The translations under genes were made by a program, and so were the position numbers. From Apostichopus japonicus (taxonomy: Eukaryota; Echinodermata; Holothuroidea; Aspidochirotida; Stichopodidae), in the NCBI RefSeq assembly GCF_037975245.1, contig NC_092576.1, positions 17,256,111 through 17,320,110 on the forward strand: 64,000 nucleotides of DNA. Reading direction: 5' to 3'. Shown here in pieces: positions 419-55,900 of the stretch (its first letter is position 1; every line of letters begins with the position of its first letter). The notes below the pieces were generated by a model. It was not told the DNA's origin. It ran no database searches and was given only the letters and a program-made list of their open reading frames with translations.

Positions 419-3400
419 CTGCAGGTAAGAAAATGGTTCCTACTGTTACAACCACGAAAAGCCCAACATCAAAATCACTTTTACTTACTTGAAAGTCTTA
501 AAAATGACTCAAAAGGTTGGTCTACTCTTTCTGAATAAAAAATCTAACCTACAATCCTTTTATTATTCTCATACATAATTGGTCGTCATAGACGTGCGTG
601 ATTTTTTACGGCATCAGAGAAAACTGATTTTACAGATGTGCTAAGAAGATGTATCTCCTAAAATAATGACATTATAGCGTGGAAAAACAAAATCAATGTT
701 AAATATAATGTAAAAATATGTTTATGACGAACACAATTTCAAAAGCCTACCAAACATGCACACACTTCTTCATTTGGTGAGTGATGATGCAACAAATGAC
801 AACACAGTTTCTTGCCCTCACTCCCCCTCCCCGCTCCACTGCCCGATGTTGGCTTGTATACCTTGCTTTCATTTTTTTCATTTTTTTATTTTGTTTCTAA
901 TATTTATACTTATTGTCTTTATAATTTATATATTAGTTAGCGTGTCCGCATATACAGCAGGAGGCCGGGGTTCGAATCCCAGTCGAGGCTGGAAGTTCTT
1001 TCGCTGTTCTGGATTTTCCAACTCACTACAATACATATATATAGACATATTATGATATATTTATGATCTCATACCATTCTGAGATTTTCAATGTTTACCG
1101 ATTACCACAAAATCAACTTTTCAGTTAATGGGTTTCTTTTACTTTCAAAATTTTTAAAAGCAGCAAACCAAGAACAAAAAAAACGAGACAATTCATTTGT
1201 TTTTGATCAGCTCTAATATTTACACTGGACAAAATGGAAAATTTTGTTGTTGTCATAACCTTACTAACTCCGGAACAGAGTTCACAATTTTCATTTTTTC
1301 CACGGTTTTGCCCACTAAAAGCATCTCTGACGTGTTAAAAAGTAAAGACAATGGCTACGTTTGATTATCTCTGAAATAAAGCTTAAAAATCCCTTTGTAA
1401 CATAAATAAGAAAAAATTTCTTGTTTTGGAAAAAAATAAATACAGCCAGATTTGCTTCTAAGGTTTGTTTGCAGAGAGCCACAAGGTTAGAAACATTAAT
1501 AATTTAAACTCTGTAGTGAACTAGCCAAACACCATTTTAACAGCCAGGCCACATTAAGAGCTTTTCGAGCAATAATCTGTCCATCCATATTAAAACAAAT
1601 CTTTATTCACTAAGTGTGCTTACTCTGTGCATTAAGACAATGTGGCTTTTAGCTTTTCTTTCCTTTTCTACTTTATTAACAATGGTTTGTTGACAGTTGT
1701 GCAGTGTCAATTATGGAAAAGATATTAATTTGGAGCAAGTTATTAATTTTCATTCATAACAAAAAGGATGCTAAGAGACCATTTGGGTACTTTTGTGTCA
1801 CGGAAGTCTATTGTAGTCGAGACGAGTGTTGTTAAAAGCAGGAGAGAGGTAGCAATACTACCACTTAGAAAATTGAAAAAAAAGATTAAATGCGTTTTGT
1901 AGTCTCTATTAGTATACTACAAATATTATTTCAAAACTTAACTCTCTATTAAGTAAGAACTTCTGGAGCTATCGGCTATTAAAAGTTTTTCACTCATAAA
2001 AGTCAACATATCCCAGTCAAGTTCACAATTCAAGAACACTTCTCGTTCGAATATTTGAATTTTTTTTATATTGGGGAACGTGTTTGCTATATATTTTTTA
2101 TCCTCGTCTGAGTTTCTTAGACCTGAGAGGCAGAGTCGTGGCAAATATTAAACTTATGCAAATTATCTATTCAACAGGTAACAAACACAGCTCCATGAGT
2201 CGTCTTAAAAGATATTCATGCATATCTAAATCATTTCTCCTTAAAGGCAGGGAATATGTTGGGTTCAAATATTGGGTCGTTGTTTTGATGGTTCCTTTAT
2301 GGTCATCTAAAGTACCGTGTGGTTCCAGTGTACAGAAACTGCCATAGAACCTTTTTAGCCTTTGTATTGCCATCTGCCCATTTTGCATGGCGTCTCGCGA
2401 TGCTACACACACGATAAATCGTCATTCCCTAAAGAGGTTAGCGGCATTGACCCCAATTATGCTAGAGTCTGTTAATGGTCACTCATGCGCCCAACATCAA
2501 GGAGCATTTTACTACCGTCCTTTGAAGTATTTATTTATTTATTCGTCACGTATGACACTCATCGATGAATGTCTGGGAGTAGTTTGTAGACACACGACGA
2601 ACAGTAACAGACTCTTTGAAAATTTCTTGCAGTTTTTAGCACGCTAAAACTTTTGAGCGAATCCTGACGAACTCTACCATAAGAGAGTGAGATGACGGCA
2701 AATGGAAGGAAGCAGAAGTCCTACAGCAATTTATGAGGTTCCTTAAACAGGGATGAGCCTGGGGTAAAAAAAAAATCACGGAACTTTGCAAAAAGTGCGG
2801 TATAGGCTCCACTTTGCATATGCTACAGTGTGTTAGGATAATATTTTTTGTCCCAGAGGTAGAAAAGAAATCACGGATATTCCGCAAATTCGCGGAAAAA
2901 GCTCATGCCTGCTTAAAAGTCTTACCAGCTGCTTCAGGGCTCCTCCTTTCCTCTCCATCGCTGCTAGGGCGTCCTTGAAGGGGGTGGGGGTCCTAGGGGT
3001 GTTATCAATCAGCATAGCCTTGGGAGTTCTGAAGGATCTAAGTAAAGAATAAGGTATGGAAAAGGTCAACATATATTAATCTTTCAAATTAAATTTCTTT
3101 CATTTACAAGAGTTAAGTTACGTATAATACTCATAAACAGAATAAACCAAAAAAAGTGTAAGTCTTGGTGTATCAATCCTTGTAGAATCCTTTCTTTTTC
3201 AGATACTAGCTGGATCCTGGCAGGATCTTTTCCAGAGGCAGATCCTGGCAAAATCTTCTTCCGAGGCAAACTAAATGCTGTCAGGATCTTCTTCAGAAGC
3301 TAACTGGATCCTAGCAGGATCTTCTTCAGAGGCTACTGGATCCTGGCAGGATCTTCTTCAGAGGCTGACTGGATCCTAGCAGGATCTTTTGACACCAGCT

Positions 3401-4026
3401 GTTGAAGATCCTTCAGGTCCTGAAGAAAATCGTGCCAGGATCGAATGGACTTTTTGCAGTAGAAAAAGCAATTTCCTAACAGCTTTGTGTTTCTTTTTTT
3501 AACATAGTAGCATTTTCATTGAGGTTGCATAATATCACACAGTGGAGCGTTAGCTCAGTGGTTAACGCAAGTGCCTTGCAATCACAAGGTCCCCGGTTCG
3601 AGTCACTCCAAGATTAATGTATGTCATCCAGTTTACAGAGTTGTTGACAATTGAGAATTCATAGTCATGGACGTTAAATATGAATGTTAGAGACTGACTT
3701 CGGTCAGCTTGCGGCTTTGATAAGCCTGTGAAAGTGTGAGGCTTCTTCACGAGTTCCTGCTAACAGGAGGATCTACAAATACATACAGGGTTCTAAGGGT
3801 CACTGACAGCGTAGATTACGTACCCTTCACTCTTGGGATGTGAATTATACACTAACGGCGATATCATGGAGGTCACATGTTCGGATGACTTCCCGATCGG
3901 AGTGGAGGTGACCATGATGGGTGGTGCGGGGCTGTCTGGTTCCGGTAAAGATGACACATTCAGGAACTGGGAGATGGTGAAAATGTAAAAAAAACAATGT
4001 AAACAAAGTCTTATTGTTATATATAG

Positions 4027-4057
<31 letters not shown>

Positions 4058-7000
4058 TATAACAAAGGTTATTGCAACTGTGCTAAAGTTAATAACTGTA
4101 TTAATATTAATAAAGACAAAAAAATAAAAATAAAAATTTAAAAGACAATGTGGCAGTGAATATTTCAAAACATTAACGTTCTTGTTTACAGTCAATTTAT
4201 CCTTCAATGTGACCAAACTCACATTTTGAAAAATGAAGTGTTTAAGTGAGATTTTTCTAATTCATGCAAAAATATCATTCAGTCATGGAGATACTGAATT
4301 TAACTGAAATATACTCAAAATTTAACAGCACTTGATCAAATATTTTGCACCACATCATGTCATAAAGATGAGTCATTAGTTCATCAAACACTACAATTAA
4401 AAAAATATTTTCTGGTGGCTGAGCAAAAGTTGCTGAAAAAAAATTTCTGCCTCGTGAGGTCGACAGTACATTCTCATACTCATAGCACTTTGTTTCGCGT
4501 AGATTTAAATTTTTCTCTTGGGTGATATTTCATAAAATTTTTAATTTCAAAATCTTGACTTTTCATCACAAAATTAAGCCCTTTTTTTTGGACCTAATAA
4601 GCCAAAATTTTGACTTTTTATCTCACAATTTTGACTTTTAATTCTACGTACAAATGTATTCAGGTTTTAAGCATAAATCAGATTTTGGGGAAGCATACCT
4701 AACAAGATGGCATTGCAGAACTACCTACTGCAATCTACTTCACTAGAGTAAGGAAGGCTCTAGCCAATCAAAATAGTTCCATCAAATATTTCTCAAGTAA
4801 AGGACAAGATATCGAGGTGAGGGTTTTTAACGGTCTGGGACTCTTTTCATTTTCTGCCGAGGGAATTCCCCTTTAATTAAACATATGTACATTATAAAAC
4901 ACCGGTATTGCAGACTGGTTTGAGTTTTAGTTTACACCAGTTATTTTGACACGTTATTTCGACTCTGTTACCTGTGAAGGTGAGAACGGCAGAGTCTTCA
5001 GGGGAGTAGACTTGGGTGGGGTCTCCAATTCTCTGGCGATGGATTTGGCTGGAGTCCCCAAGGAAGACGTTATTGAGGTATCCAAGGAGGTATCTCCGGT
5101 GAATGAACTGTGATTTCGCCGCTGTAGACAAACAACAATAACAACAGAGTAATGATCAATAGTATTAGAGTAAATCTTCTCTTTCAAAGGAAGTCATGCA
5201 CTTACAAGGTCTTTTCCACAAAAAAAAAAAACATCTTTTATGATACTTTTAAGATAGCGTGGTGGCCAATTGGCTGAGGCGTCGGACTCATGATCCAAGG
5301 ATTGCTGGTGCAATTCGTGCCTAGTTCATTATGTTGTGTCCTTGGGCAAGATGCTTCATTTCACTTGCCTCTGTCCACCCAGGCTATAATTCAAAAGCAG
5401 TTTATGTGTAGTGCTAGTTTGTAGTCGAGTAATCGCAACTTAGGTTTTGAACGCGATTAATCAAAATTCCAAAGTGTAATCGCGACTAATGGCGATTACA
5501 CGATCACAACTATCAGCACTACCGTATGGTGATTGAATAACAATTTAATCAAGTTTCTTCGAGGTTAATCTTACAAAAGCAACAGTTGACCAGATAAGTG
5601 CTGATGTTTATATGACATACTTATGGAATTACAAACAGCCACAAAAAAAAAGGGTAAAAAACAACAAACAATTTTTGTCAAAACAATATTTTATAAGATC
5701 AAATGATGAATTATAGAACTGAATTATCTGGCAGTCTGCCTCGCAGATCCGCTCGGAAATATCATAACTTACCCTTTTCCGTTGGCTCTTCTTCAGTATC
5801 GTTGGTGGGGTGCTGAATTTACTAAACTTGGATGTCTGGGGTGATGTGATGGAGATGAGGGACCCTGCGCTCTCCCTCGACAGGTCGTGCATAGCATGGG
5901 CGTCAAATCTATATCCTGTAAGGGTAAAGAGGGGCAGTTAGGGTGGATAGTGTTGAAACATATATTGCATTTTGCTACGATAAAAAAAATCATTTTTTTT
6001 AAACTAAATCCTTCGTTATTTTTTTTTCATGAGAGATCCCCATCCTGTGGAGGAAATTCTTGCAGACAGAGGAGGGAGAGTCACGACTTAGTTTTATTTG
6101 TAAATAAGCAATCGTGGATACTTGATATGTTACGGTAAATAAGCAAACGCGGATCCTTGATATGTAAGGTTAGCATGATAACAGTGACACAAGTCAAATT
6201 TGAGCAACTAATGTTGTCCAATTTTGCCTTACACATCTGTATGCCTGAGAATGTCTGAGAAGCTCACAGCACCAATGTTAACTTCCAATGATCACATAAA
6301 CTTGTAAATAAAATAGAAGGTTCTCTGTGGATGCTCCAACTGAATACTTTTTTTACTCAACAGCCGATTTTAGTTAGTGTATATGATTAGGGTTAAGTAC
6401 AGCGTTACTGTGTGAGGAAAGGTTCACATTGCATTGAAGTATCCCAGTAGCTATTGCATTAAAAGATAGTTATCTGTGTCGGCTATAATTATCATGTTTG
6501 TGATCTACAAGTATAAACTTAAAATTGTATTTCTAATCAATGAATACTGACTTAAAGGAAGCATTATTGGTGCCAAGTGGAAGCGGGTAATGAGAGGAAG
6601 GTCTTGCATGCATGGTAAGGTCATGCAAGAATTTGACAGTTATGCTAAAGAAAGAAAAACCTGCAGCTTCCTTCGGTACAAGAGATATAATTTTATCAGG
6701 GAAAATTAAATAATGATAAAGAGCAAAAGTTACCAAGAGTCAAGATCGGGAGGATATTATATTATGGGATATTGGAGGATGGAATGTATTTTGAAAGTAG
6801 GACTAAATAGAAGGTCAAGAAACAAAATGAAAAGAAATAAACAAAACTGGTGCAAGACGATACAAACATCTGAAAGGACCACCTCTGTGGTCTACGACAC
6901 AAAAGTGGCTATGGCTGTAGGTGGTATAACAAGTAACCATTGATAGAGAGAGACTGGCAGGGTGCTTGTGTGTGGTGGAAGTGGGTGAGGTGGGGTGGGG

Positions 7001-10000
7001 TGGGAGTGGGGTGGGGTGGTAAAAGGTACGAGTACACAGCAGGGTACATGTGCAGGGTGGAATCAATATCAAATAAATGTCCTGACCACTATTTATCCTG
7101 TCACCTGTTGATGCCTTGGACGGCAGCTTTATCCCAGGGACCGGCGACAAGTTCTCCTTGTTGGTGTAGCCGTAGACGATATCGGACAACGAGTCCTCCG
7201 TCTCGAAGGGCATGTACTCCGACGCACTCCTGAGATCAGAATAACTAGGAGAGAAAATCATTAAAGAAATATATTACAAGGTTTTTATTACAAGGTTTTT
7301 TTTTATTTTATTTCTGGATCCTGAACGGAGAGTCACTTTCGACCAGCACATGAGAAGATGTTTTACTAATAACACTTTGAGCACAGGCAAGCATTTATCT
7401 ATTGCTACATGTGATGTACAGTATACTGTAACATGTGGTATCAGGGTATGTGGTATTTAAGGTTATGTGGTATGTGTATCTAGGGCATGTGGTATGTGGT
7501 ATTTAGGGTAAGTATTAATGGGCATGTGGTATTAAGGGGTTTGTGGTATTAGGGATATGTGGTATATAGGGGTAAGTGATATTTCGGGGTATGTGGTATT
7601 TATGGTATGTGGTATTTAGGGTATGACGTGTTTAGGGTGTGGTCATGTGGTATTTAGGGTACATGGTATTTAGGGTATGTGGTATTTAGGGGTATGTGGT
7701 TTTTAGGGGTATGTGATATTTAGGGGTACATGGCATTTGGGGAATGTGGTATTTAGGGTATGTGGTATTTACGGGTATGTGGTGTTTAATGGTATGTGGT
7801 ATGTGTATTAAGGGCATGTGGTATTTAGGGGATGTGGTATTTAGGAATATGTGGTATTTAGGGATATGTGGTATTTAGGGGTATATGGTATTTAGGGTAT
7901 GTAGTGTTTAAGGTATGTGGTATTTGGGGTATGTGGTATTTAGGGTCTGTGGTGTTTAGGGTATGTGGTGTTTAGGGTATGTGGCCATGTGGTATTAGGG
8001 TATGTGGTATTTAGGGGTATGTGGTATTTAGGGTATGTTGTGTTAGGGTGTGTATGTGGTATGTGGTATGTATGTGGTTTGTGTATGTGGTTTTAGGGGA
8101 ATGTGATATTTAAGGGTATGTGGTATATGGTATTTAGGGTATGTGGTGTTTAGGGGATAAGGCCATGTGGTATGAAGGGTATGTGGTGTTTAGGGATATG
8201 TAGTGTTTAGGGTATGTGGTATTTAGGGGTATGTGGTATTTAGGGTATGTAGTGTTTAGAGTATGTGACATGCGGTGTTTAGCGTATAGGGTGGATTTAC
8301 AATGATAACAGCGGGAACAGGTCTTTCAATTGGGATACATTGGTTCCCAGAAATTCTAGTCAGGTGAGATTGATTCACAGCTTTGAAGATTGAAAGCGTG
8401 AAATTACCATGTAACATGCCAAAAATACTATAACTCTGTTCATTCTCTTGCTCATGTCTTAAAAAGTATTCATAAGAGCAGGGATGAACCTATTTCTTGG
8501 AAATAATTTGACATATCCTTCTAAGATTTGTAGGAATTTGTTGTAGGCAGTCTGGTTAATTAGGCTATACTGTAAGCTAAACTGCTGTTGATTTATTTAT
8601 TTATTAAATATATCAAAACCATTTAACAACCTCAAGATCGCACATTGAGTCTTCTAGAAGTTACCAACATATAGAGAGAAAGACATAACATTTTAAACTT
8701 CATGAGACTTTGTTTGTGGTCATATTTAGCATATTTTAGCATATTCTGCAAGATTTGGTTAATTTCTTAACGAGCAGTTCAAGTAAACACAGGTAAACAA
8801 ATGACATTTGTGCAGGCTGTGCTGTTAACGCAATATTACTCACCCTGTAAACGGTTGCGATTCGGAATCGTCGGATGCGGTACCATCTACCTCCTGTGAA
8901 CCCCCAAAGCCACTGTCTTGGCTGCTACTGCCGCTGGGCTGGTGGCCATATCCTATGGGGTTCAGAGTCTGGGTGATGCGCTGGCCAGCTTCCATCATCT
9001 GCATGGTAGCTGGAGACAAAGTAAAACAATTTGTGAAACCCATTACATTCGTAATGCCAGGGTGGTGGTGGATGGGTGGGGTGGGGTGGGGGGAGCCATC
9101 CGTTGGTGGTGGCAACAGGGTGGTAGTGACATTCCAGAAAAACAATCCATGAAACCCATCACATTTGTAATGCCAGGGTGGTGGATGGGTGCGGCGGGGG
9201 GGTAAGGAGCCGTCTGTCAGTGGTGACAACAGGGGGGTAGTGACATTCCAGAAAAACAATCCATGAAACCCATCACATTCGTAATGCCAGGGTGGTGGAT
9301 GGGTGCGGCGGGGGGGTAAGGAGCCGTCTGTCAGTGGTGACAACAGGGGGGTAGTGACATTCCAGAAAAACAATCCATGAAACCCATCACATTCGTAATG
9401 CCAGGGTGGTGGATGGGTGCGGCGGGGGGGTAAGGAGCCGTCTGTCAGTGGTGACAACAGGGGGGTAGTGACATTCCAGAAAAACAATCCATGAAACCCA
9501 TCACATTCGTAATGCCAGGGTGGTGGATGGGTGCGGCGGGGGGGTAGGGGGAGAGGAGCCGTCTGTCAGTGGTGACAACAGGGGGAAGTAACATTTGAAT
9601 AATTTTATCAGGTGAAGATCACCATTTCGACAACTTACATAATTTCTCTTCCTCTACCTCCTTATCAAATTTGCCCTATACAGGGTGTTTTGGGAGCCAG
9701 AAGACTTCAAATTTAATGTAAACACATTCACAATCGGTTAAATTCCAGAGAAACGTTCATAAATAAATGTATTACGGTGACAAATATATCATATTCAATA
9801 TATAGCATCATTAATAGCAGGTAGGGATCCAGGAAGACGTTGGTGTGTACAACCTACCCCTCCCAGCTCCCCCCCCCTACCTGCCCCATTCCAATCACAC
9901 TCAAATATTTTAAAGTAGCTCTAAGCACCTTCTCATTTATTTACAGCCTAAATAATGACTCAGAATGCCACAAGGCTTTTAAGTAACGTATTATGGACTA

Positions 10001-13000
10001 AATAATATGAGTACCACTACATACTGAATAGAAATCAAATCATATTGTATCTGAAATGGTCGACGAGCTCCCTGAGATAGATAAGAAGCATTATGAAATG
10101 ATCAAACACAAGAATTCACGGTTTACCTGGTAAACACATATGATTCTACCTTCAGTAGAGTACAATGGACTAACAACTAATGTACACACTGAAATATTTA
10201 TTATGCAGATGAAACTATACCTTTCACAGTCCCCGTGTATCCCACAAAGCCAACGCTGAAGTCCTGATTCGACGAAGCCTTCGAAAGAAAAGGAAATGGG
10301 GAGAGAGCAAAGTGAGCGGTACCATTCTCATGAGTCGACAATGTATGGTATGCATTTTACTGTGACTAGGCAGTGTCATGCTTAGTCATCCAAAGGAACA
10401 GATTGATACTTGTTATCAACTTGTTATCAACTTGTTACCTTTCATGTCACACACGAAGACTTGAACGAAAAGTTAGTTTTTAAGTCAACTCAAAATGTAA
10501 AACTGAATGGATAAAAAAAAATTTAAAAAATTGTAAAAGCATAAAAGTTTTCGGCTAGAGTAAAGCATTTGAACCAAATGACCTCAGGACTACACGTACA
10601 GTATCCTGTACTGTGTGTGCTAACTTAGGTGCTATACCAACTACTGTATGCTATCCAGCTATTAGTCCATGATGATCCCTAAATAACCAAATCAATAACC
10701 AAATAAATAATCAAATAAATAACCAAATAAATAACCAAATAAATAATCAAATAAATAACTGAATAAATTAATGGATGACCGGATGAATGAATGGATGATT
10801 GAATGGATGGATGAATGGATGGGATGCATGAATTGGATGAATCAATCAATCAATCAATCAATCAATGGATGGATGAATGAATGAATCGATGAATGAATCG
10901 ATGAATGGATGAATGAATGAATAAATAGTCATTACTTTGCTGGGCATTTTTTTTTATCTGATGCCATATTGTCTTGCATATACCATGTAACCAGAGGTCA
11001 CACCCTGATTCCTTTAACACACATTTAACACAGCATGGATGAGATTTCAAGAGAGAATTGTTAGGCTTGTTGTGTTGATCAAGTACTCCAAGACATACTG
11101 TACAGTACTGTACCTTATCTGTTCAATTTGTACACCAAAACTTAAGATCATAGCTGAAACAATAACATCGTCATGGAAAACCGAATTTCTTTTCCTAAGG
11201 TCTTAACCTTGTTTGTTACCTTAATGTTTCCTTTTAGATATTCTGTCCCTGCCTTCCATTTCCCCTATACCCTCCCTCCCCCCCCCCCCCCGACACCTCC
11301 CTCTCCACAACCTTCCTGACTTCACAGACAAAATAATAACATTGTCATGGAAAACCCAATTTTTTTTCCTAAGGTTATAACCTTAGAGAAATGTTTGTAA
11401 CCTTAAAGTTTCCTTTTAGGTGTTCTGTCCCTTCCTTCCCCTTCACCTGCACCAGCCCCCACCCCCCCCCCCCCCCCCGACACCTCCTTCTCCACAACCT
11501 AACTGCCTTCACAGACAAATAACCAATGAATCTTACCTCTGGTTGTGCCTTTTGTACTGTTGTCCTCTTCATCGGTGTGTAAGGGTTACAGTTTTCAACT
11601 TTTCTCTTCATAGATGAGTTCCAATGGTTCTTGATGGCATTGTCAGTCCTAAATAATAAATAACAAAACATTGGGTTTAGTGTATGTGAAAAAGACTAAG
11701 ACAGAAACTATTATCATGGTGTGTGATTTTGACTCACATACCAAACAGCAACAAACCAGAAGATATGACAGACATTTTGTTACAGTAAATTTACCTTTTT
11801 TCACATCACTATATTTGTAATCAAATGAGACACAGGGGGGGCAATGCACAGAGTTGCATATCGCAATGATATCAAATCAACAGTTAATTACATCCTGACC
11901 ATTAAACATGTGACCTTTGTCCTTGGTTCCCATGGCAACCACATATTTTTTGATAGTACTTGACATTTCCATTATACCAGTGAAGGTTACATGAAGGGTT
12001 TACCCTGGGGTACCTTCACATCGAGACAATCATCCCAGCCGTTTAGGAGGAGCTTTGACACAACATTGGACACACACGTTAACCATGTGACCTTTGTCCT
12101 CGGTTCCCATGACAACCACATATTTTTTGATAGTACTTGACTTTTCCATTATACCAGTCAAGGTTCCATGAAGGGTTTACCCTGGGGTACCTTCACATCG
12201 AAACAATCATCCCAGCCATTTAGGAGGAGCTTTGACACAACATTGGACACACACACAGAGTGCCCTCCATCATGGAGTTCTGGTCACCCTGGGTAACCCC
12301 CCAAGAGTAGCTATTCAGGAAAATGAAAACCATTACCATGGCAACTGTTGCTATAGCAACTGACATAGCTGTATATGACCCAACTGGCAAAGGAACTACA
12401 ATATCTCATCCTCACCTATAGAAGTGATGAGATAGTATGGAGAAACCAAAGAGAGGAATGTTGCTGTTTGGGAGAACTGTGAGTTTGCACCTGGTTACCA
12501 CGGAGACTAATATCTCTGGTTCTATACACACTCACCTTCCGGGCAGTAGTTCAGCTATCTTGGCCCATCTGTTTCCCAGTTTTTTGTGAGCCTCGTAGAT
12601 GATTCTGTCTTCTTGAGGCGTCCAGGCAGATTTTTTAATCTCAGGATTTAGGTGGTTGTGCCACCTTGAAAATATTACGATCAAAACGTGAATATATTTA
12701 ACAAAGAATGTCTTGCATCTTTTATCTAAAAATTCCCTAAATTTAAATCCTAACAAAGTAATAAAAAAGACTTAACAGCATCATGAAATAAAGAAAACTA
12801 ATAACATAATTGGCAATGCCTTAGCACATGTACATTATTTAACCAATTTCATATGCTTTTCTGTGTAATATACAGACAAACATTTTACACATGAATGGAG
12901 AATTAATTAATTATTTACTACAGTAGATCTATTGGCCAGGGTTGCAAAACCTTGCAAACCAAATTAGTGGGAAATTCCTTGTTCTTTCATGAATCCACCC

Positions 13001-16000
13001 GCACAACCAATTGAAAAAGAAAGAGTGTTTAGTTGTCCTTTTTGCTAGCAGGAAATATCAGCTAGGTGTTCCAACCCTGCTCTCAGCTCTGAACAAATCT
13101 AATTATTCGAGTGTGATTGGAAGGGGGGGTTGGGAAAGGGGGGTTGGGAGGGGGGTTGTTCACACCAACGTCCTCCTGGATCCCTACCTGCTATTAATGA
13201 TGTTATATTGAATATGATTTATTTATCACCGTAACACACTTATTTATGATCAGTTCTCGGGAATTTAACCGACTGAATGTGTTTATATTTAATTGGAATA
13301 CAAAAATTTGGTTATTGAATTCATGTCGAAGGGATCAAACTTGTCGAATAATTCGTAGATGGGAAGAGATCATTTTCTGTTTTATTGCCTTGCAAGCTCT
13401 GTACTTTCCTTTTAAGGATTAATAAAGTAATTCTTACTCTTACTCGGGTATGTACTAATTCCGTGGCACAGACGCTTCGAAGCTTACCTTTCTCTGCACT
13501 GCTTTCCAGTCCTCCCGACCAATTCCTTTGAGATCACGGACCAACGTTTGGGTCCGTGTTCGTCCACTAATGACACCACTAGGTCGTCCTCCTGTGACAT
13601 GGTGAGGGGGGAAGGGTGGGTCGGGGGTTAGGTGTCAAAGTTCAAATATATCATCATCAAACATTTCGGCCAGACTGTGTAAATATGACGGCTAAATTTC
13701 TAAAAGATTGCCCCGGCATTTAACCCAAGATTGGTGCGAAATGATGCAAAAGGTGCGCTATTCTAAATTTTGTTGATACTTTTAGCATTAGAATGATGCA
13801 GGATGCAAATGTTAGGTGGTTATAATGAGGACGAACAGAGTGCATTTTACCGGAAATTGTCGGGCAGATGCCATGAAAAGGACAAAAGCATGCAAAAGAA
13901 ATCGGAAGGATTTTCTTCAAGGGCAGACAGATGCGAATAACCAGACTACGGACACATTTTAAACAACAATTTTTTATTGGAAGTTATCTTTTCCTCTGTC
14001 AAGTTTCAATGTATATATTTTTGGTTCAACCTTTGAAGAAGATCCTGCTAGGATGGTGAGAATCAGGCCCACCCTCTTTTCTATACTACCTACAAAGGTT
14101 TTTTTTTTTTTTTTTTGCAGTTTGTCGACAGTTTATACGTCTTCTCTCTCTCATATATTTGGCACATAGGACAGTGAATTTAAATCATTTGGCATGTCTC
14201 TTTACAGATTTTGAAGGCCTCTGTCAGGTTTTCCCTCCCGTTTTAGATTGAGCATGTCAAGAGCTTGAAAAACTCTGACAGAGAAAAGTGGATGGAGTTG
14301 TTGATGCCAGAAGGTTATCTATGTTGTCAAGGGAAGATGGGAGAGGTGGAAGAGGTTGTCGCTGAATACAAGATGAGAAGGAGGAGGAGGAGGAGGAGGA
14401 GGAGGAGGAGGAGGAGGAGGAGGAGGAGGAGGAGGAGGAGGAGGAGGAGGAGGAGGAGGAGGAGGAGGAGGAGGAGGAGGAGGTGCGTGATGAAGATAGG
14501 AAAGCAGTGCAGATGAGAGATGTAGGAAAGCTTGAAGGAAATGAAAAGATTTTTTTTTCTAAGAAAGGTAACATATATTACCACTTTGACTCACGATGAC
14601 CACAAGGCAATTTTTCTTCTTTATTTGTAGTTGACAAGTGAAGAGAGTAAACGTGCCTTCACCCTCTTTGCATTAGGATGAGCGATTGTGGGATTCCCCC
14701 AAATTTATCCAAAGGGTCCAACAAGAAAACACTTTCTCTTCTAAGGGGGAATTTCTCGCAACGATTACCGGTACTTCCCCCAACTTGCACCATTACTGTA
14801 GTTACAAAACTTGCCAATAATGAGCTTGATACTGATACCTACAGTAGCCAACTAGTTGGGCAACAGTCAAGTCATAAATTAACCTTGTGTTTTTCATAGC
14901 TAGATACAAAGTACACAGGTAGACTAACTTGCTAATTTGCTACATGCAAAGATGTATCATAGCAGGTTTACTACAAACAATTTGCTTGGAGGATTTTCAG
15001 TAATTATCCATGATAAATTTAACATCACAAGACCTCACTTTTGTACCATAGAAATTACGTAAGCACTATAAAGACTCCCCTGCGTCATATGAGAACTTAA
15101 ACCATGCTCGGGGAAACAATTTATCTGGTATTGTATTGCATTCATCGCAAACTGCTACAGTATGCTAAACTGCTCAAAATGCCATACGAGTCAACACAGA
15201 TGTACATGGAGTAGCAGTCTGTCACACAGGAGCCATAGGATATCATAAGAGACAAATGGTCAGTGGCTACACGACTGCTACAATATTTTCATATTATTCC
15301 CTGACACTGTGGTAGTACCTTTCCCTGCATTGCTTAGAAGACCGTCCGAGAAGCTTTGAAGCTATAAATGTCCACTCTCTGCATCCGTACTTTTCCACTA
15401 GTTTGGACAATCTCTTATCGTCCTACAGAGGGCAGCAGCAAAAAAACCAAATGATAATGGCCATAAGAAGGTAGAGAAAGAGAGATAGAGAGTTTATAAT
15501 GAAAAATGAACACAGCCTGTTTTTACTCCATTTTTTTCTTTCCCACTGCGCTTTTAGAAATGGATGATGATGATGGGTGCAACAGAAAAGTGAGAAGAAA
15601 AAAAAATTGACAATTTTTTAAACAGGAAAGTGAATTTGTAAAATGATAGAAGAAATGAGACCATTAGTGCACATCTTGAGCAAGGAATTTCACCGTATAT
15701 TGGCAAAATCAGAGTTGGCCATGCAGAATGTAGGTGAGAGCAAGGATGAAATGTTATCGATGATAGAGAAGCTACAGTAGTTTGAGAGGTTGCAACAGAG
15801 ATGTTAGGAAGACTCGTTGATTTCATAAGAAAGTGCATGCAAGACAGTTAGAACAGCCATTACACTTTTGCCATTTTATCTATGATGATATCAAACAGAT
15901 GGCAAAGGGGTAAACGTGGGTCATTTATAAATAAAACATGTGATTAAATACACCCAGCTAGAGTAGCTCTATCTTACACACATATATAGTATGATGATTA

Positions 16001-19000
16001 TTTGTTAAATTTCATTTCACAAAGTTGGTTTTCAATAAATAAGCATATATACAGTAGTCAAACATCTAAAGTAGTAGTGTACAGCAAGGATTGGCAATAA
16101 ATACCACCCATAATTAAGTTCAGGACCGCGTCTCTGAGAATTCTATGCAAAACGGTGAAATTGCTAAACATGTACAACTACAGTATGTATAGCAGTTTTT
16201 GTACACAGGGAACTGTAGTATATATATTACAAGAGACAAAAAGTCAGAGAATTCAACTGTTTCAGGTAAATGTAATCACTAAGTAATTCTCTTTCAGACT
16301 AGTCCTCATGGATTCGTATTCATTCGGACAACATTTATCTATTCCATAGTTAACTTTAAGCGTACAGTTCATCATTCAGTTTTAAAAGTAACAAGTTTGA
16401 ATTCAAAATATTTCTGTTTGCCAATTAATTTGTTCATATGTTAATTAATAAATACAGACCTCTTTGGTCCATGGTCCTTTGACCAGCTCTGGATCAAGAA
16501 CTTTCTGCCAGCGTTGGAAACACTGAACCTCTGATCTGTTTGGAAGAAAGGATGCTACCAGCTTCCAATTGCTACGTCCGTACTGTTCCACTTGATCTCT
16601 TAAAGTATTGTCCTATAAATATGAAAATGCAAAAGAAAAAGAGTCTGTAAATAAATAGAATGAAAATTCTTCTGATTTGGTAGACGTACAGTACCAATAA
16701 GCAAATTATTTCAAAACCTTTATTGCCAGATTTCTGAATATTCAGGGGTACAAGGATATTACAGTATATGAATAATTGAGATAAAAATTTCAAAAAATTT
16801 CATCCATACAGAAGACTTATGAAAAAAGAAAATGACAGTAAAGTTAATTGTAGTAATTACTTAAAACTTTCATGCCATTATAACATTGTTTATACAGGTA
16901 CCTTTAATCATTACTTGATTGCTCACAGCCTCACACAAGGATACATAACAATTTAATGACAAATATCTCTCAGAATCCCTCTCCTATCCCTGGTTCTTAT
17001 CTCATTTGCTCGGAATGATACTCAGCTACTGTAGTATCAGTGCTTAATGTTTTCATTACTTATCAAACATGTCACAACTGACCATTAAAATAATCATCAT
17101 TGATCATGTCAAACCTTTTCCATTCATACATACATGATCACTAACAACCTCAAAGGGCAACAAGGGGCCTTTTCTTCTCTTACTGCCTTTCAATGGAACT
17201 CATCAGGTAATGACCTCAACCACAAGAGGATAATGAACCCATGAGTAACTTCCCTTGTAATCCTACTACCCCTATTCATCACATTCACATTCAACTTGGA
17301 AACTGTACTGTACTTACCAACAGTAAGCTGCTTAAATTGAATTAGAGGTTAGCTTAAGAAAAGAAAGAGGCTCTGTTTGGACATTGTCATATATAATAGT
17401 GATTGTGCTATAGTACTTCCTGCATAGAATCAAGTATTTAAGAATATAAACTACTTGCACTGTAAGTGCTATAAATTAGTAGTGCACTAAGCTTATATTG
17501 CTTGTGTACAAGACAGTGTCACACACAACATGTGGTCATCCCAACCTTTACCAAGTTTACTATTACAGCCTCACCTCCCTCTCTGACAGGCTAATTGAAT
17601 GGTTTATAGAGCTTACCTTTCAGGGGAACAATCTGGTTTTGCACAGCAGAATGCTATACAAAAATGACAAGAGACTGTGCAAGTCCAAACATGTTTAATT
17701 AAACATTTCTGGTACACAAGAACCATAGTTTGCTAAATGAGACAAAATTCAGAGCTTTCAATACTGCTACACAAAGTTTATATTTACTGCCGGTTTGTGT
17801 AGCAACTGGGGTGGGAGTGGGGGTTATAATTGGTTTGTGACATATTTGTACATGTATAGAGATTGTCCAGTGACTCGGGTTAGAAAGATTTGTATTTAGT
17901 GACTCAACTCAAAATAAAGTTATTCGTTAGATTCCTGCTTCAGATCTACTTACTGGGTGTGGCCCTCAAACACTATACGTACGTAACTCATAATGGTTGT
18001 AAACTGAATATCACTTTAGGAATCTAGAGAAAATGGGATTAGCCCAATATTTGGGCTGGATTTATCTAAGGTAGGTTGGAATATCTACTGTAAAGAACAA
18101 TACTTGCTACAGTATTTGCAGATCACTTGTTTTCACTGAACATTAGTGAGCCTCTTTTAATAAAAAACTTTCAAAATTCTGTCATTGTCAAATTGTTTAC
18201 CCTAAATTGTGCCACCTATCTTTGATAGACTTCACTACAACATAACAACACTCTCTCTTTATTAAAAGACTAAGAACCCGAATAAAAGACTATTAAAACC
18301 AAAATAACTCACTTCTTGTTTTGTCCATCTGGATTTACTGGACTTCTTGCTGCTAAATGAATCAAATGAACTGTCATAGTCATGGTCAGTGCTGTAGTTA
18401 AAAGAGTATTCCTCTTCATCACTGGAACTATCACATTGCCTGAGGAACGAAATGTGAAAAAGATAGCTCTAGGATAACCCCTTTAGTACATTATGATACA
18501 AAATATTATAGAGTCAAATTGCTCATCGTGATGTTTATTCTCCTCTGTCTGAAAATTCTTAGTTTTCTTTTTCTTTGCAAATGTTATGTTCTCATAAGTG
18601 TTCTCATTAGTGTAGCCTACTGCTAGTATTAGTGTTAACTTTGAGCAGCCCCTGGATTAGTATGACTGGTCATGGCTATTGAAGTCAGTATTTACATCAC
18701 ATTCACAATCAAAAGATGACAGGGTACTAATTTAGAATCCATACCAATCGACCCGACTTCCTAACCCCTAACCATATTCCCTACTTCCTAACCCTAATTC
18801 CTAACCCTACTCCTTAACCGTACTTTCTAACCCCTAACCTTATTCTGCCAATTCTAAGTAAGCTTTCCCATTTATATGGTACGGATTCTAAAGTTAGGCC
18901 GATGACGGGAAACATTTTACATATGTATGGGAATTTGAGCAGTATCATATTTGTTTCCCATTAATACAGAAGTTTTGCATTAGGCCAAGCCTAAGAAAGG

Positions 19001-37902: not shown

Positions 37903-40900
37903 GTGAGTACAATGAATAGTCAGTTATTACAGTAGTATACATGTACTGGGACACAGTACAGGTATGTAGTATGACTGAGTGTCAGTCCAGTAGTATATGT
38001 ACTGATCAAACAAAAAAAACAGCCTGTTAATGCATTATTTACGTACAGTTAATACATGTACTAGTGCTATCAACAGTGTGTTTTAATTTGTTTTGCTGTC
38101 AACAGGATTCGTCCCCAGCTGGCCAGAGAGAAGATCGACATGTGCCGTACGTGCACTACAGTCGCTGCGGAGACCAAACAGATCTCTTTGGGTTCAGATC
38201 GCATGTTTACATATGACTTTGTCTTTGATATGGACAGTCAACAGAATGAGATCTATGATACCATCGTGAGGTCATTAATCGAGGGGTATGTGTAATGTTT
38301 TCATTGTTATAAGTCATGAATATTCATGAAAAGAAACAGATCTCTATGGGTTCAGATCGCATGTTTATATATGACTTTGCCTTTGATATGGACAATCAAC
38401 AGAATGAGATCTATGATACCATCATGAGGTCATTAATCGAGGGGTATGTGTAATGTTTTCATTGTTATAAGTCATGAATATTCATGAAGAGAAACAGATC
38501 TCTTTGGGTTCAGATCGCATGTTTACATATGACTTTGTCTTTGATATGGACAGTCAACAGAATGAAATCTACGATACCATCGTGAGGTCATTAATCGAGG
38601 GGTATGTGTAATGTTTTCATTGTTATAAGTCATGAATATTCATGAAGAGAAACAGATCTCTATGGGTTCAGATCGCTTGTTTACATATGACTTTGTCTTT
38701 GATATGGACAGTCAACAGAATGAGATCTACGATACCATCGTGAGGTCATTAATCGAGGGGTATGTGTAATGTTTTCATTGTTATAAGTCATGAATATTCA
38801 TGAAGAGAAACAGATCTCTATGGGTTCAGATCGCTTGTTTACATACAACTTTGTCTTTGATATGGACATTCAACAGAATGAGATCTATGATACCATCGTT
38901 AGGTCATTAATTGAGGGGTATGTGTAATGTTCTCATTGTTATGACTCATGAATATTCATGAATATTCATGAATATTTATCAAAGCAGTTAAGTGTATCAA
39001 AGGGGAGATGGTGAAGAACTGGTGCCAAATGGGTTCAGAAATACATACCGTGTATAGTCTGTAACACTATATCACTAAATAATCTTTTACAAGAGTTTTT
39101 TTAAAGGCAAAATTAACTTTAAGGCTTAGGAATTGTCGTTTTCAGTTTATATAACATTTTTGAAATAACCTGAAATTTTACAGAGAAAATGCCATGGTTG
39201 ATTGTTAAGTTCGCTGAAAACACTCTCTAGGGAGTGTCGATTCTTACAGTTGGGGAATTGTATACTGTATCCCACAGCGAATTGATGACAGTGACAAATT
39301 GCTGCCGTCGTTTTCACATTTGCCGTTACATCTCTCTGTCAAATTTCCTAATCAATCTGCCGAGCATGTTATCAACAGAAAGGTTCACCCATTCATAATG
39401 TGTTTGGCACAGTTAGTCATTTTGATCTTGTCATTTTATCCACACAATTCTTTTTAACCTATAATAAACATTCTGTTTTAATTGTTTATATCTTGTTCAC
39501 CTTTAGATGCTTTGATGGTTACAATGCCACTGTATTCGCCTATGGACAGACCGGATCAGGTAAGACCTACACCATGGGGACAGGATTTGAACCAGGGATT
39601 AAAGCCGAGGAGGAAGGGATTATCCCCAGGGCTGTGCATCACCTGTTTGCAGGGATTCAGGAGAGGAAGGAGAAAGCAGAGGCAGCCAAAGAACCAGCTC
39701 CAGAATTCAAGATCCACGCACAATTCATGGAGGTAAGTGATTGGCTATTTAATCCGTTACCATGGCTACAATGGCCAGTTAGAATGTCCATGAAGAGTAA
39801 TATTTGCTTATTTTTATTTTATTATTCGCTTTTTATATAGTGCTTTATACCAGTGATAGGTCGCAAAGCACTCTACGTTAAAATACCATGGTCAAAGATT
39901 ACCTGTCCCAGAGACAATCCCTCCAGTCGGCAGCAGTTATATAATGCACCCAATGACTAGTTACCTCACAGGTACCCATTTAACCCCTGAGTGGAGAGAG
40001 GCAAGTGAGATAAAGCATCTAGCCCAAGGACACAATGTAATGAACTTAGGCAGGAATCGAACCAGCAATCATTGGATCACGAGTCCGACGCCTTAGCCAA
40101 TTGGCCACCACCCTCTCACTGAGTAGTTTAACAGTGCTGTAACACTGAGTAGTTTAACACTGTGTTTGAAGTTATCGACTTTTCAGTCTGGTCAAATCCC
40201 CGAAATGTTCTTATAATGTCAAAAGTAATTGATGTGTTTGTGTGTGTTCTGTATGTATGTGTTCTGTGTGTACAGTATGTCTTCTGTGTGTATGTGTAAT
40301 GTGTGTATGTGTACTGTGTGTATGTATTCTGTGTGTCTGTCTTCTGTGTGTGTATTCAGTTTGTGTATTCTGTGTGTCTGTCTTCTGCGTGTATGTGTAC
40401 TGTGTGTTTGTGTGTGTTCTGTGTGTATGTGTACTGTGTGTGTGTGTTCTGTGTGTATGTGTTCTGTGTGTACAGTATGTCTTCTGTGTGTATGTGTAAT
40501 GTGTTTTTGTGTTCTGTGTGTATGTGTTCTGTGTGTACAGTATGTCTTCTGTGTGTATGTGTTCTGTGTGTACAGTATGTCTTCTGTGTGTATGTGTACT
40601 GTGTGTGTGTGTTCTGTGTGTATGTGTTCTGTGTGTACAGTATGTCTTCTGTGTGTATGTGTACTGTGTGTTTGTGTGTACTGTGTGTATGTGTTCTGTG
40701 TGTACAGTATGTCTTCTGTGTGTATGTGTACTGTGTGTGTGTGTTCTGTGTGTATGTGTACTGTGTGTGTGTGTTCTGTGTGTATGTATACTGTGTGTGT
40801 GTGTTCTGTGTGTATGTGTTCTGTGTGTACAGTATGTCTTCTGTGTGTATGTGTACTGTGTGTGTGTGTTCTGTGTCTGTCTTCTGTGTGTGTATTCTGT

Positions 40901-49900: not shown

Positions 49901-52900
49901 TGGCTTGTTGAATTGTAGCACAGATACTGTTGATGAATGTAGCACAGACAATGGAATAAATTATGCCTTGATAATAGATGGATGGTGCAGATAAGGTCAT
50001 TGTTAATGTGTGGTTGAATTATACATCGCAATTTCCATATATCTTGAGAGGACATACATGTAGTTGTAAAACAAATCTTGAATAAAAAATTGGTGACAAA
50101 TTTATATTTGCTGTAATGCACATGTAATTATTGTACTACAATTTGTACATGTATGCATTCACTGTGTAATACAATGTGATTGACTTATGAACAGTATTAT
50201 GCAGTTGAGTAAGTAGACAAACTGCATTGCTGTACGTATATAATATACAATTTTGCTGTTCAACAGTATATACTGTTGCTACTGTACTGTACCTTTTGTA
50301 GGTGAGCAGACATCCGATTTCAGGGCCCGACAGTCCCCTGAACTCATTAACTGTCCCTGATTATATTTTTGTAGAAGAAACAGTAGTTTTCAGAACGTAA
50401 GAGCTGTGATTGTTTTCATTGACTATACAAACATAACCTTCCTTCATACTTGTTTCTAGATGAGGTATATTTGATTTACTTTGCTCCTGGCATGTACCTG
50501 TCTCCTCACAACAACAGCACTCTTGTTGTACCGTGTCTCGAGTGAACTGGTAACTGTCTGTACACATAGACTTTATTCATACTTCTTTCTAGATGAGGTG
50601 TTTAATATTTATACTGTAATTTGTGCATTTCACCATCATCCTTAAAGGGAGTGAAGACTCGTGCACAAAGAAACATCTGATGTCGGTGATCTGACCTAGT
50701 TTCGAATGAGGTGTAACAGAAGTGTTAGACATCACCATTGATCCCAGAAATGACACACACAGCTTGCTACCGTCGGTAATTAAAGACACTAGTGTACATT
50801 CAATACATACAGCTACGGTCAATACCTACAACACAGTGTACATAGCAGCGATGGACATCTCAGGTCTAGATAAAAGATAACAAGGTATCAAATTTCACTA
50901 CTGTCTGCATTTTGTAGCAACAAGAAGAAAACTTCACTTGCAAGCAACGGAAAATTAACTTTTTCAGAGAGCTGCACATGGTTTGGGGCGAGTCTTCAAT
51001 GCCTTTAAAACATAGAACCACTAACACACAAGAGAGGCATTCAAAATTCTCTCCCTGCATTAAATTTAAACTAACCTGTGATGTCAACATGTGGGATCAA
51101 GATTGAATTCTCGTGTCTTACTGTTTCCTGGAAAAGAAAACGAAGCCTGTTCATACTTCGAGGAAGTTAAAATATTGAACAGTTTGAAACAATGTTGCCT
51201 GGGAAGTGAGCTGTGTTATAACTTGAAATGATTGTTATTAATATGACAATATATGATATCCTGCTCTGACATGCTGGTTATTAATTTTAATCCCTGCACT
51301 GTACATTGAAGTACTAACGAAACACAATGATAAGACATATACTTTTACAAGCTGATCAGTGTATCTGTCATCGTGTGGCAAATTGAAGGATTGTGGAGAG
51401 GGCTTTGGATAAGAGTAGATCAGAGACATGAAGTATGTATGTACATGTATTTCAGATCCTCCTGTAAGCAGGAACTCGCGAAGAAGCCTCATTGGCTTAT
51501 CAAAGTCAGTCTCTTAATGTATTTAATGTCCATGATTATGAATTGTCAATTATCAACTGGACAACATACATTAATCTTGAAGTGACTCTAACCGGGGACC
51601 TTATGATTGGAAGGCACCGGCGTTATAAAACCAAGTACTGTTTATGCATACACCATACTGTATCAGTCCATAAATAACACTCCGGTATGTACCTACAGTA
51701 CGTATGGGAACCAAAGGTTTACAGATCTCATATCATAACAACTTATCAACTTGCAATGGTTATAAACTTTAAAAAGCACCCTCGGTCAGTCACATTTCAA
51801 TTCTAAAAATAAATTTATATAGCTTGTGTACTTTTTTACAGTCTGGTTGATATTTGTCACAAATTGTATATTACACACTTCCAGGACTTTGGCATTGAAG
51901 AATTAACTTTGATGACAGTTGTTGATGCTTTTAGTTCTAACAATTATTGATTTTAATCAAATTCCTTGACAATTGTGAATTAATCCAGGTGCAGTGAATA
52001 CAGTTTCTGTAGTTAGTCAATTCTTATACGTCATTAAGTACAACATTAGTACTACTGATATATTGTTAAATTCTTGGCCAGATACATGCAAATTTTATAG
52101 GTACACGTTATTGATGTTGTTTCTATTCAGAGCAAACTTTTTATAAGGATATATTTCAGCAAATATGGTTGTTTGAAAAAGTGTAGCAAAACAACAATAA
52201 TCAGTTTGTCACTGTAGGATCATTAAACTGTACATTAGGAGAGAATGCGTAGGTTTGGCGAATAGAACAGCAATACATACACTGTAGGAGAGATGTGTAT
52301 GTCTGGTGAATAGAACAGCAATACATACACTGTAGGAGAGATGTGTATGTCTGGTGAATAGAACAGCAATATTTACACTGTAGGAGAGATGTGTAGGTTT
52401 GGTGAATAGAACAGCAATATGTACACTGTAGGAGAGATGTGTAGGTTTGGTGGATAGTACAGCAATATGTACACTGTAGGAGAGATGTGTAGGTTTGGTG
52501 AATAGAACAGCAATATGTACACTGTTAGAGAGATGTGTAGGTTTGGTGAATAGAACAGCAATATGTACACTGTAGGAGAGATGTGTAGGTTTGGCGAATA
52601 GAACAGCAATACATACACTGTAGGAGAGATGTGTATGTCTGGTGAATAGAACAGCAATACATACACTGTAGGAGAGATGTGTATGTCTGGTGAATAGAAC
52701 AGCAATATTTACACTGTAGGAGAGATGTGTAGGTTTGGTGAATAGAACAGCAATATGTACACTGCAGGAGAGATGTGTAGGTTTGGTGGATAGTACAGCA
52801 ATATGTACACTGTAGGAGAGATTTGTAGGTTTGGTGAATAGAACAGCAATATGTACACTGTAAGAGAGATGTGTAGGTTTGGTGAATAGAACAGCAATAT

Positions 52901-55900
52901 GTACACTGTAGGAGAGATGTGTAGGTTGGTGAATAGAACAACAATATTTACACTGTAGGAGAGATGTGTACAGTAGGTCTGGTGAATAGAACAATAATAT
53001 GTACACTGTAGGAGAGATGTGTAGGCCTGGTGAATAGAACAGCAATATGTACACTGCAGGAGAGATGTGTAGGTTTGGTGGATAGTACAGCAATATGTAC
53101 ACTGTAGGAGAGATGTGTAGGTTTGGTGAATAGAACAGCAATATTTACACTATAGGAGAGATGTGTAGGTTTGGTGAATAGAACAGCAATATGTACACTG
53201 TAGGAGAGATGTGTAGGTTGGTGAATAGAACAGCAATATGTACACTGTAAGAGAGATGTGTAGGTTTGGTGAATAGAACAGCAATATGTACACTGTAGGA
53301 GAGATGTGTAGGTTGGTGAATAGAACAGCAATATTTACAGTGTAGGAGAGATGTGTACAGTAGATCTGGTGAATAGAACAACCATATGTACACTGTAGGA
53401 GAGATGTGTAGATCTGGTGAATAGAACAGCAATATGTACACTGTAGGAGAGATGTGTAGGTTTGGTGAATAGAACAGCAATATGTACACTGTAGGAGAGA
53501 TGTGTAGGTTTGGTGAATAGAACAGCAATATTTACACTGTAGGAGAGATGTGTATGTCTGATGAATAGAACAGCAATATTTACACTGTAGGAGAGATGTG
53601 TACAGTAGGTTTTGTGAATAGAACAGCAATATTTACACTGTAGGAGAGATGTGTAAGTCTGGTGAATAGAACAGCAATATTTACGGGTTGTAAGAGTGAT
53701 GTTTTGGTGAATAGAACAGCAATATGTACACTGTAGGAGAGATGTGTAGGATAAATAGAATACCAATATGTACACTGTAGGAGAGATGTGTATGTCTGGT
53801 GAATAGAACAGCAATATTTACGGGTTGTAAGAGTGATGTTTTGGTGAATAGAACAGCAATATGTACACTGTAGGAGAGATGTGTAGGATTGGTGAATATA
53901 ATAATACCAATTTCACACAGCAGCCACTGCAGGCGAGATTGGAGGATTGGTGAATAAAATACCAATACAGTACAGTATGTACACAGCCACTGTAGGAGAG
54001 GTATATAGGTTTGGTGAATATAATATACACTGAAGAAGAGATAGTGTAGGATTGGTGAATAGAATACCAATATGTACACTGTATTAGAGCTGTGTAGGTT
54101 TGCTGATTAGAACACCAGATGTTGTGGTGATATAGCAACTTATCATTTTAACTAATAAGTACCTGTTTGGGGGTATTTAGTTACAAAGCAATTTGAATTT
54201 GATGTTGAAAACAACTCTGCGTGACAACCTCCATGTGCAGCTGATTTTTGGTTGTCGGAACAGACACTTGGTCTTCTCAGACTTCCAGACTACCATTAAA
54301 AGTTTGCCCTGGTACATTAACACTGTCTCATCATAAATAGATAGTCATGTAGTACGTATAGATTCTTTAGATTGAGTATCATAAATGGTGTTTGAAATTC
54401 TGTAAACACAAACATAGTTAAAATACCAAAAGGCAATTTGTCATTGAAATTATAACCTTGAATTTAAGTCGTGACTTGGTTCAGGGAATAGTTTATCAGT
54501 GTATTTCACATTCCAATACTTGTATGTACAGTCAGTTGCATATTATGGACATTTTGGACAATCTGTAACTAAATACAAACGCAAAGTTGTGCAGCAGTTG
54601 AGGTTTCTACACAAGAACAATGGCATTTTACAAAAGGCAAAACTTGTCAGAGCCTTGAAAACTGCTATGTACACAAAATTTGAACGTAAATTTATAGCCT
54701 GAAAATGAAGATAGCTTGATTAATGCAGTCAAACAATGGAAATTTTACAATGAACATTTGAGTTTTGAACGATTGAATCACACAGCATACATATGCAGCA
54801 TTATTGCCCAACATTGATCATATACAGTACTTATATGTTTGTAAAGGCACTGAAGGAGTTGGTGTTGATCCAAAAGTGGGTCAGTGGGGGCGCCCTGCAT
54901 GCCAAATGTTGACCCTAGATAGTTATTGGAAGGCAGGCAGTATGTTGACATGAGATGGTAAGTTACTAAGATATTGTCATTCCTAAATTGATCCACTCCA
55001 AGAATTTTTGGCATTACAGTATGTATCTAGTGGTTATCTAGGGAATAAGTTAGTGTAAACATTTTGCTAGCACTTTTGAAGGCTATGACCTTCCTCTCTT
55101 ATAAAATACTCTGGTTCTGTACATGTTTACAAAGTTACAAACATTGCTACAGTATATGTACAGCTTTGTACAAGTTTGTACAATATTATAGCAATTTTGA
55201 CAATGTTGCCTAGCATTTTGTGATGCAATATACCAGGTTAATTATTCACTGGGTTCCACTGTACCAATGGGCTGTTACTTGCTATGTTCAAGACTGTGGT
55301 ACCATACAGTACCACTACCATATACTTAATACTGTACCATACACTATATACCATATTGACTGTAAACCATATGTACCCACAGGCTGTTACTTGGTGATCT
55401 GTTCAAGACAGTGTGGTTTAGCAATTTGACAATTTTGCATAGCATTTTGTGATGCAATACCAGATAAATTATTCACTGGATTCCACTGCATATATGTACA
55501 GTATCAACGGGTTGTTACTTGGTGGTATGTTCAAGACTGTGTACCATACAGTACCATATACTGTACCATACATTACCATATAAACTAAGGTGACCATATT
55601 TTCCTGACTGGAACCGGGGACATTTATTGCGTGACTGATATGGGGGAGGGGTTTAAGGGGAGGGGGGGTCCCCCTCTCGTTTGGAAAATTTTCAAGTGCC
55701 TAAGGTGCTTAGATGTAAAATGGTGATACCTAGAAGCACTATTTAAATCAATTTTATTTTCAAAAATGTAGCTTTTTTTAGATGAAATTCACTTACTATA
55801 CGTGGTTCTTTGAGAGCTTGTGAGTTGCTCATGCTCACACTGTAAGTGTCGTTGTGGCCCCGTAGTTGCCAATTATACGGTCGAAAGAGTGCTAGGCTAG

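Follow-up and report, generated by a model that had tools for sequence, protein, structure and literature searches.

FOXP1 carries a pair of exons, 18 and 18b, within its forkhead domain. These exons are mutually exclusive, and the choice between them changes DNA-binding specificity, according to passages of PMC11701043. In vertebrate COE/EBF genes there is a duplicated HLH exon that is always included (as stated in part of PMC2394523). For exons of the Dscam and 14-3-3zeta type, arm duplication has been proposed to create competing structures (passages of PMC6071210), and a loop-out arrangement of mutually exclusive splicing is reviewed in sections of PMC11802352. Animal Myb genes (MYB, MYBL1, MYBL2 and those of sea urchin and sea star) encode the repeats R1-R2-R3, a C-terminal domain and a canonical R2 of the form found in exon 4b of the gene described here. 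The splicing sections of one review (PMC4276956) place all alternative splicing of human MYB in the C-terminal part, where it leaves the DNA-binding domain normal, whereas the exon pair of Apostichopus japonicus Myb is located within R2. The preliminary description of this locus had likewise mentioned alternative splicing of vertebrate MYB outside the DNA-binding core.

The window, a stretch of 64,000 nucleotides of A. japonicus DNA, contains on its minus strand a gene that, judging by its sequence, is the Myb gene of this holothurian. Exons 2 to 13 join into a single frame that stays open for 512 codons, whether exon 4a or exon 4b is used, and all 512 residues of the protein joined with exon 4b are matched in P0108, which is 'myb-related protein B-like isoform X1 [Apostichopus japonicus]'. 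A Pfam search finds PF00249 in three stretches of P0108 and the c-Myb C-terminal domain PF09316 at 78.5 bits, and the protein thus has the three Myb repeats and the C-terminal domain that characterize an animal Myb. Exon 2 (18313-18439) encodes an acidic N-terminus and the start of R1, ends with RWTKQE in phase 0 and matches P0108. Exon 3 (16460-16612) encodes the remainder of R1 and continues to the first helix of R2, ending with GPWTKE. Downstream of the two exons 4, exon 5 (12536-12664) provides the third Trp of R2 and most of R3, and exon 6 (11537-11648) provides the end of R3. Exons 7 to 13 span 2926-10278 and are joined in open frame (10278-10221, 9009-8844, 7244-7105, 5915-5773, 5121-4972, 3966-3824 and 3037-2926).

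P0108 has six residues more than the join at the protein start, which come from exon 1, and another six where exon 9 ends, consistent with a second donor located 18 nt downstream. Two donors, separated by 18 nt, thus seem to serve exon 9 (7087-7105, minus strand); DRINSG is present in P0108, and the join that lacks it is also in frame. Some of the annotated isoforms may arise from this pair of donors. Exon 1 was not found with the one pattern searched, and the C-terminal end of Myb was not found within the window, where the next coding piece that was detected begins near 418. A genome search with the spliced R1-R2-R3 query returned eight matches, five in this gene and three elsewhere, with 37-39% identity and scores up to 27.3 bits, and by this search there is no close second Myb gene in the genome. 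Pfam Myb matches in the 672-Mb genome number 14, with four in this gene and ten elsewhere.

Other features are present elsewhere in the window. Translations indicate the start of a gene at 38106-38962 (plus strand) that is presumably kinesin-like, with further translation at 39.5 kb. The 3' part of its apparent second exon and the intron start are repeated head to tail in five copies of 158 bp (the exon's own included) that are 96% matching, and this array is a recent-looking tandem duplication. There is also a tRNA match at 40042-40114 (minus strand) with 36.3 bits against a gathering score of 29, and a 48-bp tandem repeat at 52229-53898 with about 35 copies, in which several minus-strand frames are open.

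Exons 4a (15319-15422) and 4b (13488-13591) are each 104 nt long, enter in phase 0 and leave in phase 2, and have AG...GT borders. The borders read CCCTCTGTAG|GACGAT...GGGAAAG|GTACTACC for 4a and CATGTCACAG|GAGGAC...GAGAAAG|GTAAGCTT for 4b. Each exon encodes residues 99-133 of R2 in c-Myb numbering, with 4b specifying the canonical body (EDDLVVSLVDEHGPKRWSVISKELVGRTGKQCRE-R), as carried by P0108, and 4a an alternative body (DDKRLSKLVEKYGCREWTFIASKLLGRSSKQCRE-R). The two share the same residue at 14 of 34 complete codons, or at 15 of 35 if the junction Arg is counted. Exon 3 (16612-16460), either exon 4 and exon 5 (12664-12536) form one open frame. When 4a and 4b are joined to each other, translation ends as ...RERRTT* (AGG AGG ACG ACC TAG), and when exon 3 is joined directly to exon 5 it ends as VAQPPKS*, with a stop after seven codons. 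The splice joins verify the coordinates, length, phases and splice competence of both exons as given in the preliminary description, as well as its account of double inclusion and of skipping, its proposal that the frame enforces exclusivity (the 512-codon frame is retained with either exon alone) and its count of 14 identical residues. The pair has several of the features by which mutually exclusive exons are recognized, being adjoining, homologous and of similar length, with equal phases, each in frame alone, and with a broken frame if both or neither are used. Thus, if both exons are used at all, their use must be exclusive. The two-exon design is real.

That both exons encode the body of R2, another claim of that description, is confirmed by Pfam. 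The spliced R2 matches PF00249 at 64.5 bits with 4a (E 9.5e-18) and at 74.0 bits with 4b, against a cut-off of 24.4, and matches PF13921 at 59.6 bits with 4a and 58.7 bits with 4b. Exon 4a alone gives a PF00249 match with E 4.2e-7 in the search of the 672-Mb genome. Neutral drift from 4b was simulated by substitutions only, AT-biased and with transitions favoured, in 10,000 runs for each of four settings; insertions and deletions were omitted, which favours the neutral case. Open results were scored against a profile built from 187 different R2s, a non-random sample in which retrieval was biased towards proteins related to the product of this gene, while positions 128-133 were partly fixed by the pattern. 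The pattern fits 322 of the 347 retrieved proteins, and P0108, P0112 and P0119 were excluded. Exon 4b scores 95.4 and exon 4a scores 87.6 on this profile. None of the 10,000 runs reached the 4a score in any setting: the best result was 50.1 at the observed number of 46 nucleotide differences (stops in 8458 runs), 62.0 at 20 amino acid differences (stops in 8035), 77.3 at 14 amino acid differences (stops in 6917) and 84.3 at 23 nucleotide differences (stops in 6992). Stops were therefore acquired in 69-85% of the neutral runs. The differences between 4a and 4b fall at codon positions 1, 2 and 3 in 20, 8 and 18 of 34 cases, and the minimum at position 2 fits coding constraint, though with p = 0.067 against equality. 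Because no drift run reached its profile score, the view that 4a is a selected coding exon now, or was until recently, is strongly supported by the sequence. Exon 4a has almost certainly been shaped by prolonged selection on its protein.

The gene thus has exon 4 in two tandem copies, each encoding residues 99-133 and each valid between exons 3 and 5. We consider it likely that these copies form a mutually exclusive pair, in which 4b is the default and 4a is used in some tissue or stage to give a second Myb protein. Transcripts that include both exons or neither contain a premature stop and would be subject to mRNA decay. Exon 4b, with its strong donor, would be used by default, and 4a, with its weak donor, would be used in the more restricted setting.

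The only full-length A. japonicus protein seen, P0108, carries 4b. Two protein searches aimed at the R2 of 4a yielded no 4a orthologue, among all 107 relatives found by one and the best 120 of 538 found by the other, and the whole-protein search covered the best 120 of 5142 matches. The protein database holds one representative for each 90% identity cluster, and an isoform differing by 20 residues is usually hidden in it. P0108 stands for a cluster of five member sequences, and a 4a isoform, which would be identical to P0108 at 492 of 512 residues, could be hidden there; DDKRLSKLVEKYGC is the sequence by which the 4a form would be told among the cluster members. Among 347 proteins, those that come closest to exon 4a, sharing 22 of its 35 residues, are plant, fungal and other distant R2s. 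Holothurian models were few among the matches, and the other two, P0112 from A. japonicus and P0119 from Holothuria leucospilota, begin after the Myb repeats and are uninformative on exon 4. Perhaps gene finders were tripped by the two incompatible exons 4, which may account for these truncated starts. A 4a-like R2 is present in none of 14 repeat-bearing proteins from other echinoderms, hemichordates, amphioxus, a mollusc and an annelid, all of them cluster representatives whose isoforms are possibly hidden, and these 14 animal Myb proteins have a canonical R2.

A different reading of these search results is that exon 4a was functional until recently and is now out of use, remaining intact since decay has only begun. 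The lack of a listed 4a product or orthologue favours this reading, as do the weak 4a donor GTACTA and residues Ser127 and Glu114, which occur in 0 of 187 R2s; together, the donor and the two residues could represent early decay and count against a second Myb protein. However, 4a has no stop or frameshift, and its AG and GT are intact. Moreover, the stops found in 6917 of 10,000 runs after drift to only 14 amino acid differences indicate that any loss of 4a must be recent. On balance we regard recent loss as unlikely.

Unproductive splicing is a known mode of control for regulators. One could accordingly propose that 4a serves as a poison exon, which joins 4b to create the early TAG described above, such that decay lowers the level of Myb and the protein sequence of 4a goes unused. 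This arrangement needs no protein conservation, and yet 4a retains its length, both phases and an R2 profile that the simulation does not reproduce. In addition, replacement of 4b by 4a gives a full open frame. These features make a poison exon very unlikely, and double inclusion of 4a and 4b may occur as a side product. Finally, it is scarcely credible that 4a is an assembly artefact or a misplaced piece of another Myb gene. Nothing in the analysis favours this reading, and against it the only match of the 104-nt exon in the genome is the exon itself (in a search scoring best candidates only), the best R1-R2-R3 match outside the locus is that of 27.3 bits, and 4a stands in its expected place, after exon 3 and before 4b, with phases that match.

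We return to the explanation that 4a and 4b are alternatives giving two Myb proteins. The R2 encoded with 4a retains the three Trp residues and the KQCRER recognition helix, while 20 of its 35 residues differ from those of 4b. Among the residues retained are W115, I118, L122, G124, R125 and K128-R133. There are 32 residues of 4a, out of 35, that are found at their own position in at least one of the 187 distinct R2s, including Leu103 (32 of 187), Cys112 (12 of 187) and Phe117 (28 of 187). The remaining three, Glu114, Leu123 and Ser127, are found in 0 of 187, and position 127 is Gly in all 187. Over these 35 residues, 4a has a net charge of +5, against 0 for 4b and +6 for human R2 (human sequence as typed), and the 4a form therefore has no loss of positive charge.

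The cavity of c-Myb R2 is bounded by V103, I118, C130 and R133, and the V103L change in c-Myb lowers R2 flexibility, DNA binding and trans-activation, according to passages of PMC3240579 that cite Ogata 1996 for the latter. Since Leu103 is common in other R2s, the effect of V103L in the context of 4a is only a prediction, and this residue need not impair R2. Position 117 is one that we take to be among the AMV v-Myb sites. Such sites point away from DNA and probably contact partners, as described in part of PMC4276956. The Myb protein with 4a would thus retain the R2 fold with changes at 20 of 35 residues that include V103L in the cavity, E114, F117 and S127, and the likely outcome of 4a use would be altered DNA affinity or partner choice. 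One gene could in this way produce two Myb proteins that differ in how they read DNA or partners.

The means by which one exon would be chosen can be considered from the donors. The U1 duplex energies are -5.7 kcal/mol for the exon 3 donor GTCTGT, -5.6 kcal/mol for the 4a donor GTACTA and -9.5 kcal/mol for the 4b donor GTAAGC. The preliminary description had suggested that a weak exon 3 donor may aid the choice. This donor is indeed weak, but exon 3 is common to both forms and its donor therefore cannot choose between them. It is also unexceptional in the gene: exons 2, 12 and 7 have donors of -5.3, -6.0 and -6.3 kcal/mol, respectively, and thus donor strength says little on regulation. Across the gene, 858 GT sites were scanned, and 9% of them pair with U1 as well as the 4a donor or better. 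Steric exclusion requires a short intron, and it is rejected for this pair since the 4a-4b intron, at 1727 nt, is too long. Minor (U12) introns are rejected as well, since by eye the donors are not of the U12 type.

A more specific candidate is an antisense element at 14492-14513 within the 4a-4b intron, which is complementary at 19 of 22 nucleotides, 15 of them in a row, to the 3' end of exon 4b (13493-13514). It adjoins a (CCU)n tract of about 36 copies (14375-14483). In 22 comparisons of 11 exons with the introns that flank them, the longest perfect antisense runs elsewhere are 7 to 10 nt. In 1000 randomised sets of the three introns no run reaches 15, and the best is 14. For the 22-nt score, the numbers of randomisations as good, out of 300, are 250, 300, 39, 292, 0 and 126 for six exon-intron pairs, where 0 belongs to 4b with the 4a-4b intron. 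When stretches of 1106 nt and 1963 nt were folded, the predicted pairing probability was at least 0.99 for 12 of the 15 core pairs and 0.56 to 0.85 for the other three; the outer five pairs of the 22-nt stem have 0.11 to 0.14 in the 1106-nt fold. The (CCU)n tract would lie inside the predicted stem, together with the 4b acceptor and most of exon 4b, and the stem would end 5 nt short of the 4b donor.

The element has a duplex energy of -36.6 kcal/mol with the 4b end versus -16.6 kcal/mol with the 4a end (rank 107 of 1772 windows). A two-way docking element is therefore unsupported, and the element is unlike the Dscam type, in which one docking site pairs with the selector of either exon. Its next best partner is a stretch near 11,474 in intron 6, at -32.7 kcal/mol. 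This near-equal value makes the element less special by duplex energy, and it is the perfect run of 15 that stands out. As modelled, the stem may loop out 4b during the use of 4a; alternatively, the element could be a functionless inverted micro-duplication. In tests for long exon-intron duplexes, the shuffles that equalled or exceeded the real sequence numbered 56, 3, 18 and 38 of 60 for four pairs, and the sole pair near the edge (3 of 60) is 4a with the 4a-4b intron. Two inverted repeat copies are apparent by eye at 13080-13300 and 9690-9900 (minus strand), in introns 4b-5 and 7-8. They could pair across exons 5-7, and they are probably a mobile-element relic.

The complete proposal is that a splice swap of most of R2, chosen by a looping antisense element, produces a second Myb in which the R2 cavity is filled and the recognition helix begins differently. 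It is rather doubtful as a whole, and we offer it tentatively. If true, the gene of a conserved cell-cycle regulator would itself contain the means to switch how the protein binds DNA, in an animal noted for regeneration.

The flanking introns of the two exons give only one match with E <1 (20 nt, E 0.009), which lies within the 3' ends of the exons themselves, and the other five have E of at least 1.4. Thus, flank similarity is gone and the exon duplication is probably old. Exon 4a is identical to R1 of its own protein at 15 of 35 residues, the count that it also has with 4b, and to human R2 as typed at 19 of 35. A derivation from R1 was considered and a copy of exon 4 is preferred, since 4a agrees with exon 4 in its phases and at both of its boundaries.

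The DNA-binding module R2 of Myb is strongly conserved. A natural second R2 would be a ready experiment on which of its residues, including V103 of the cavity, set DNA affinity, chromatin or partner choice. It would also show how a Myb gene with no close paralogues gains variety, which vertebrates obtained from three genes. No report of an exon swap in Myb R2 was found in the literature searched, to which most subscription papers are external, and the Myb passages of PMC4327956 and PMC7916379 contain nothing on splicing of R2 exons.

Among known systems, those of the Dscam and 14-3-3zeta type, as far as the passages of PMC6071210 describe them, resemble the Myb pair in having equal-length tandem exons with long-range intronic pairing beside one of them, and differ in that the Myb element pairs strongly with 4b only. 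The loop-out type, in the form reviewed in the sections of PMC11802352, resembles the predicted Myb stem, except that one arm of the Myb stem lies in an exon. In COE/EBF, as in Myb, an exon within a functional module of a transcription factor is duplicated in tandem; according to the part of PMC2394523 concerned, the duplicated COE/EBF exon is always included, whereas in Myb the inclusion of both exons would stop the frame. The nearest known case is FOXP1 18/18b, in which one of two exons is chosen and DNA binding is changed. It differs in belonging to another domain family, and the passages of PMC11701043 report transcripts, a motif change and a developmental role, whereas the Myb locus presents a genomic design only. 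By this comparison, the Myb pair would be of a known kind, namely mutually exclusive exons that alter DNA binding, and what would be new is its occurrence in Myb R2 together with a candidate looping element.
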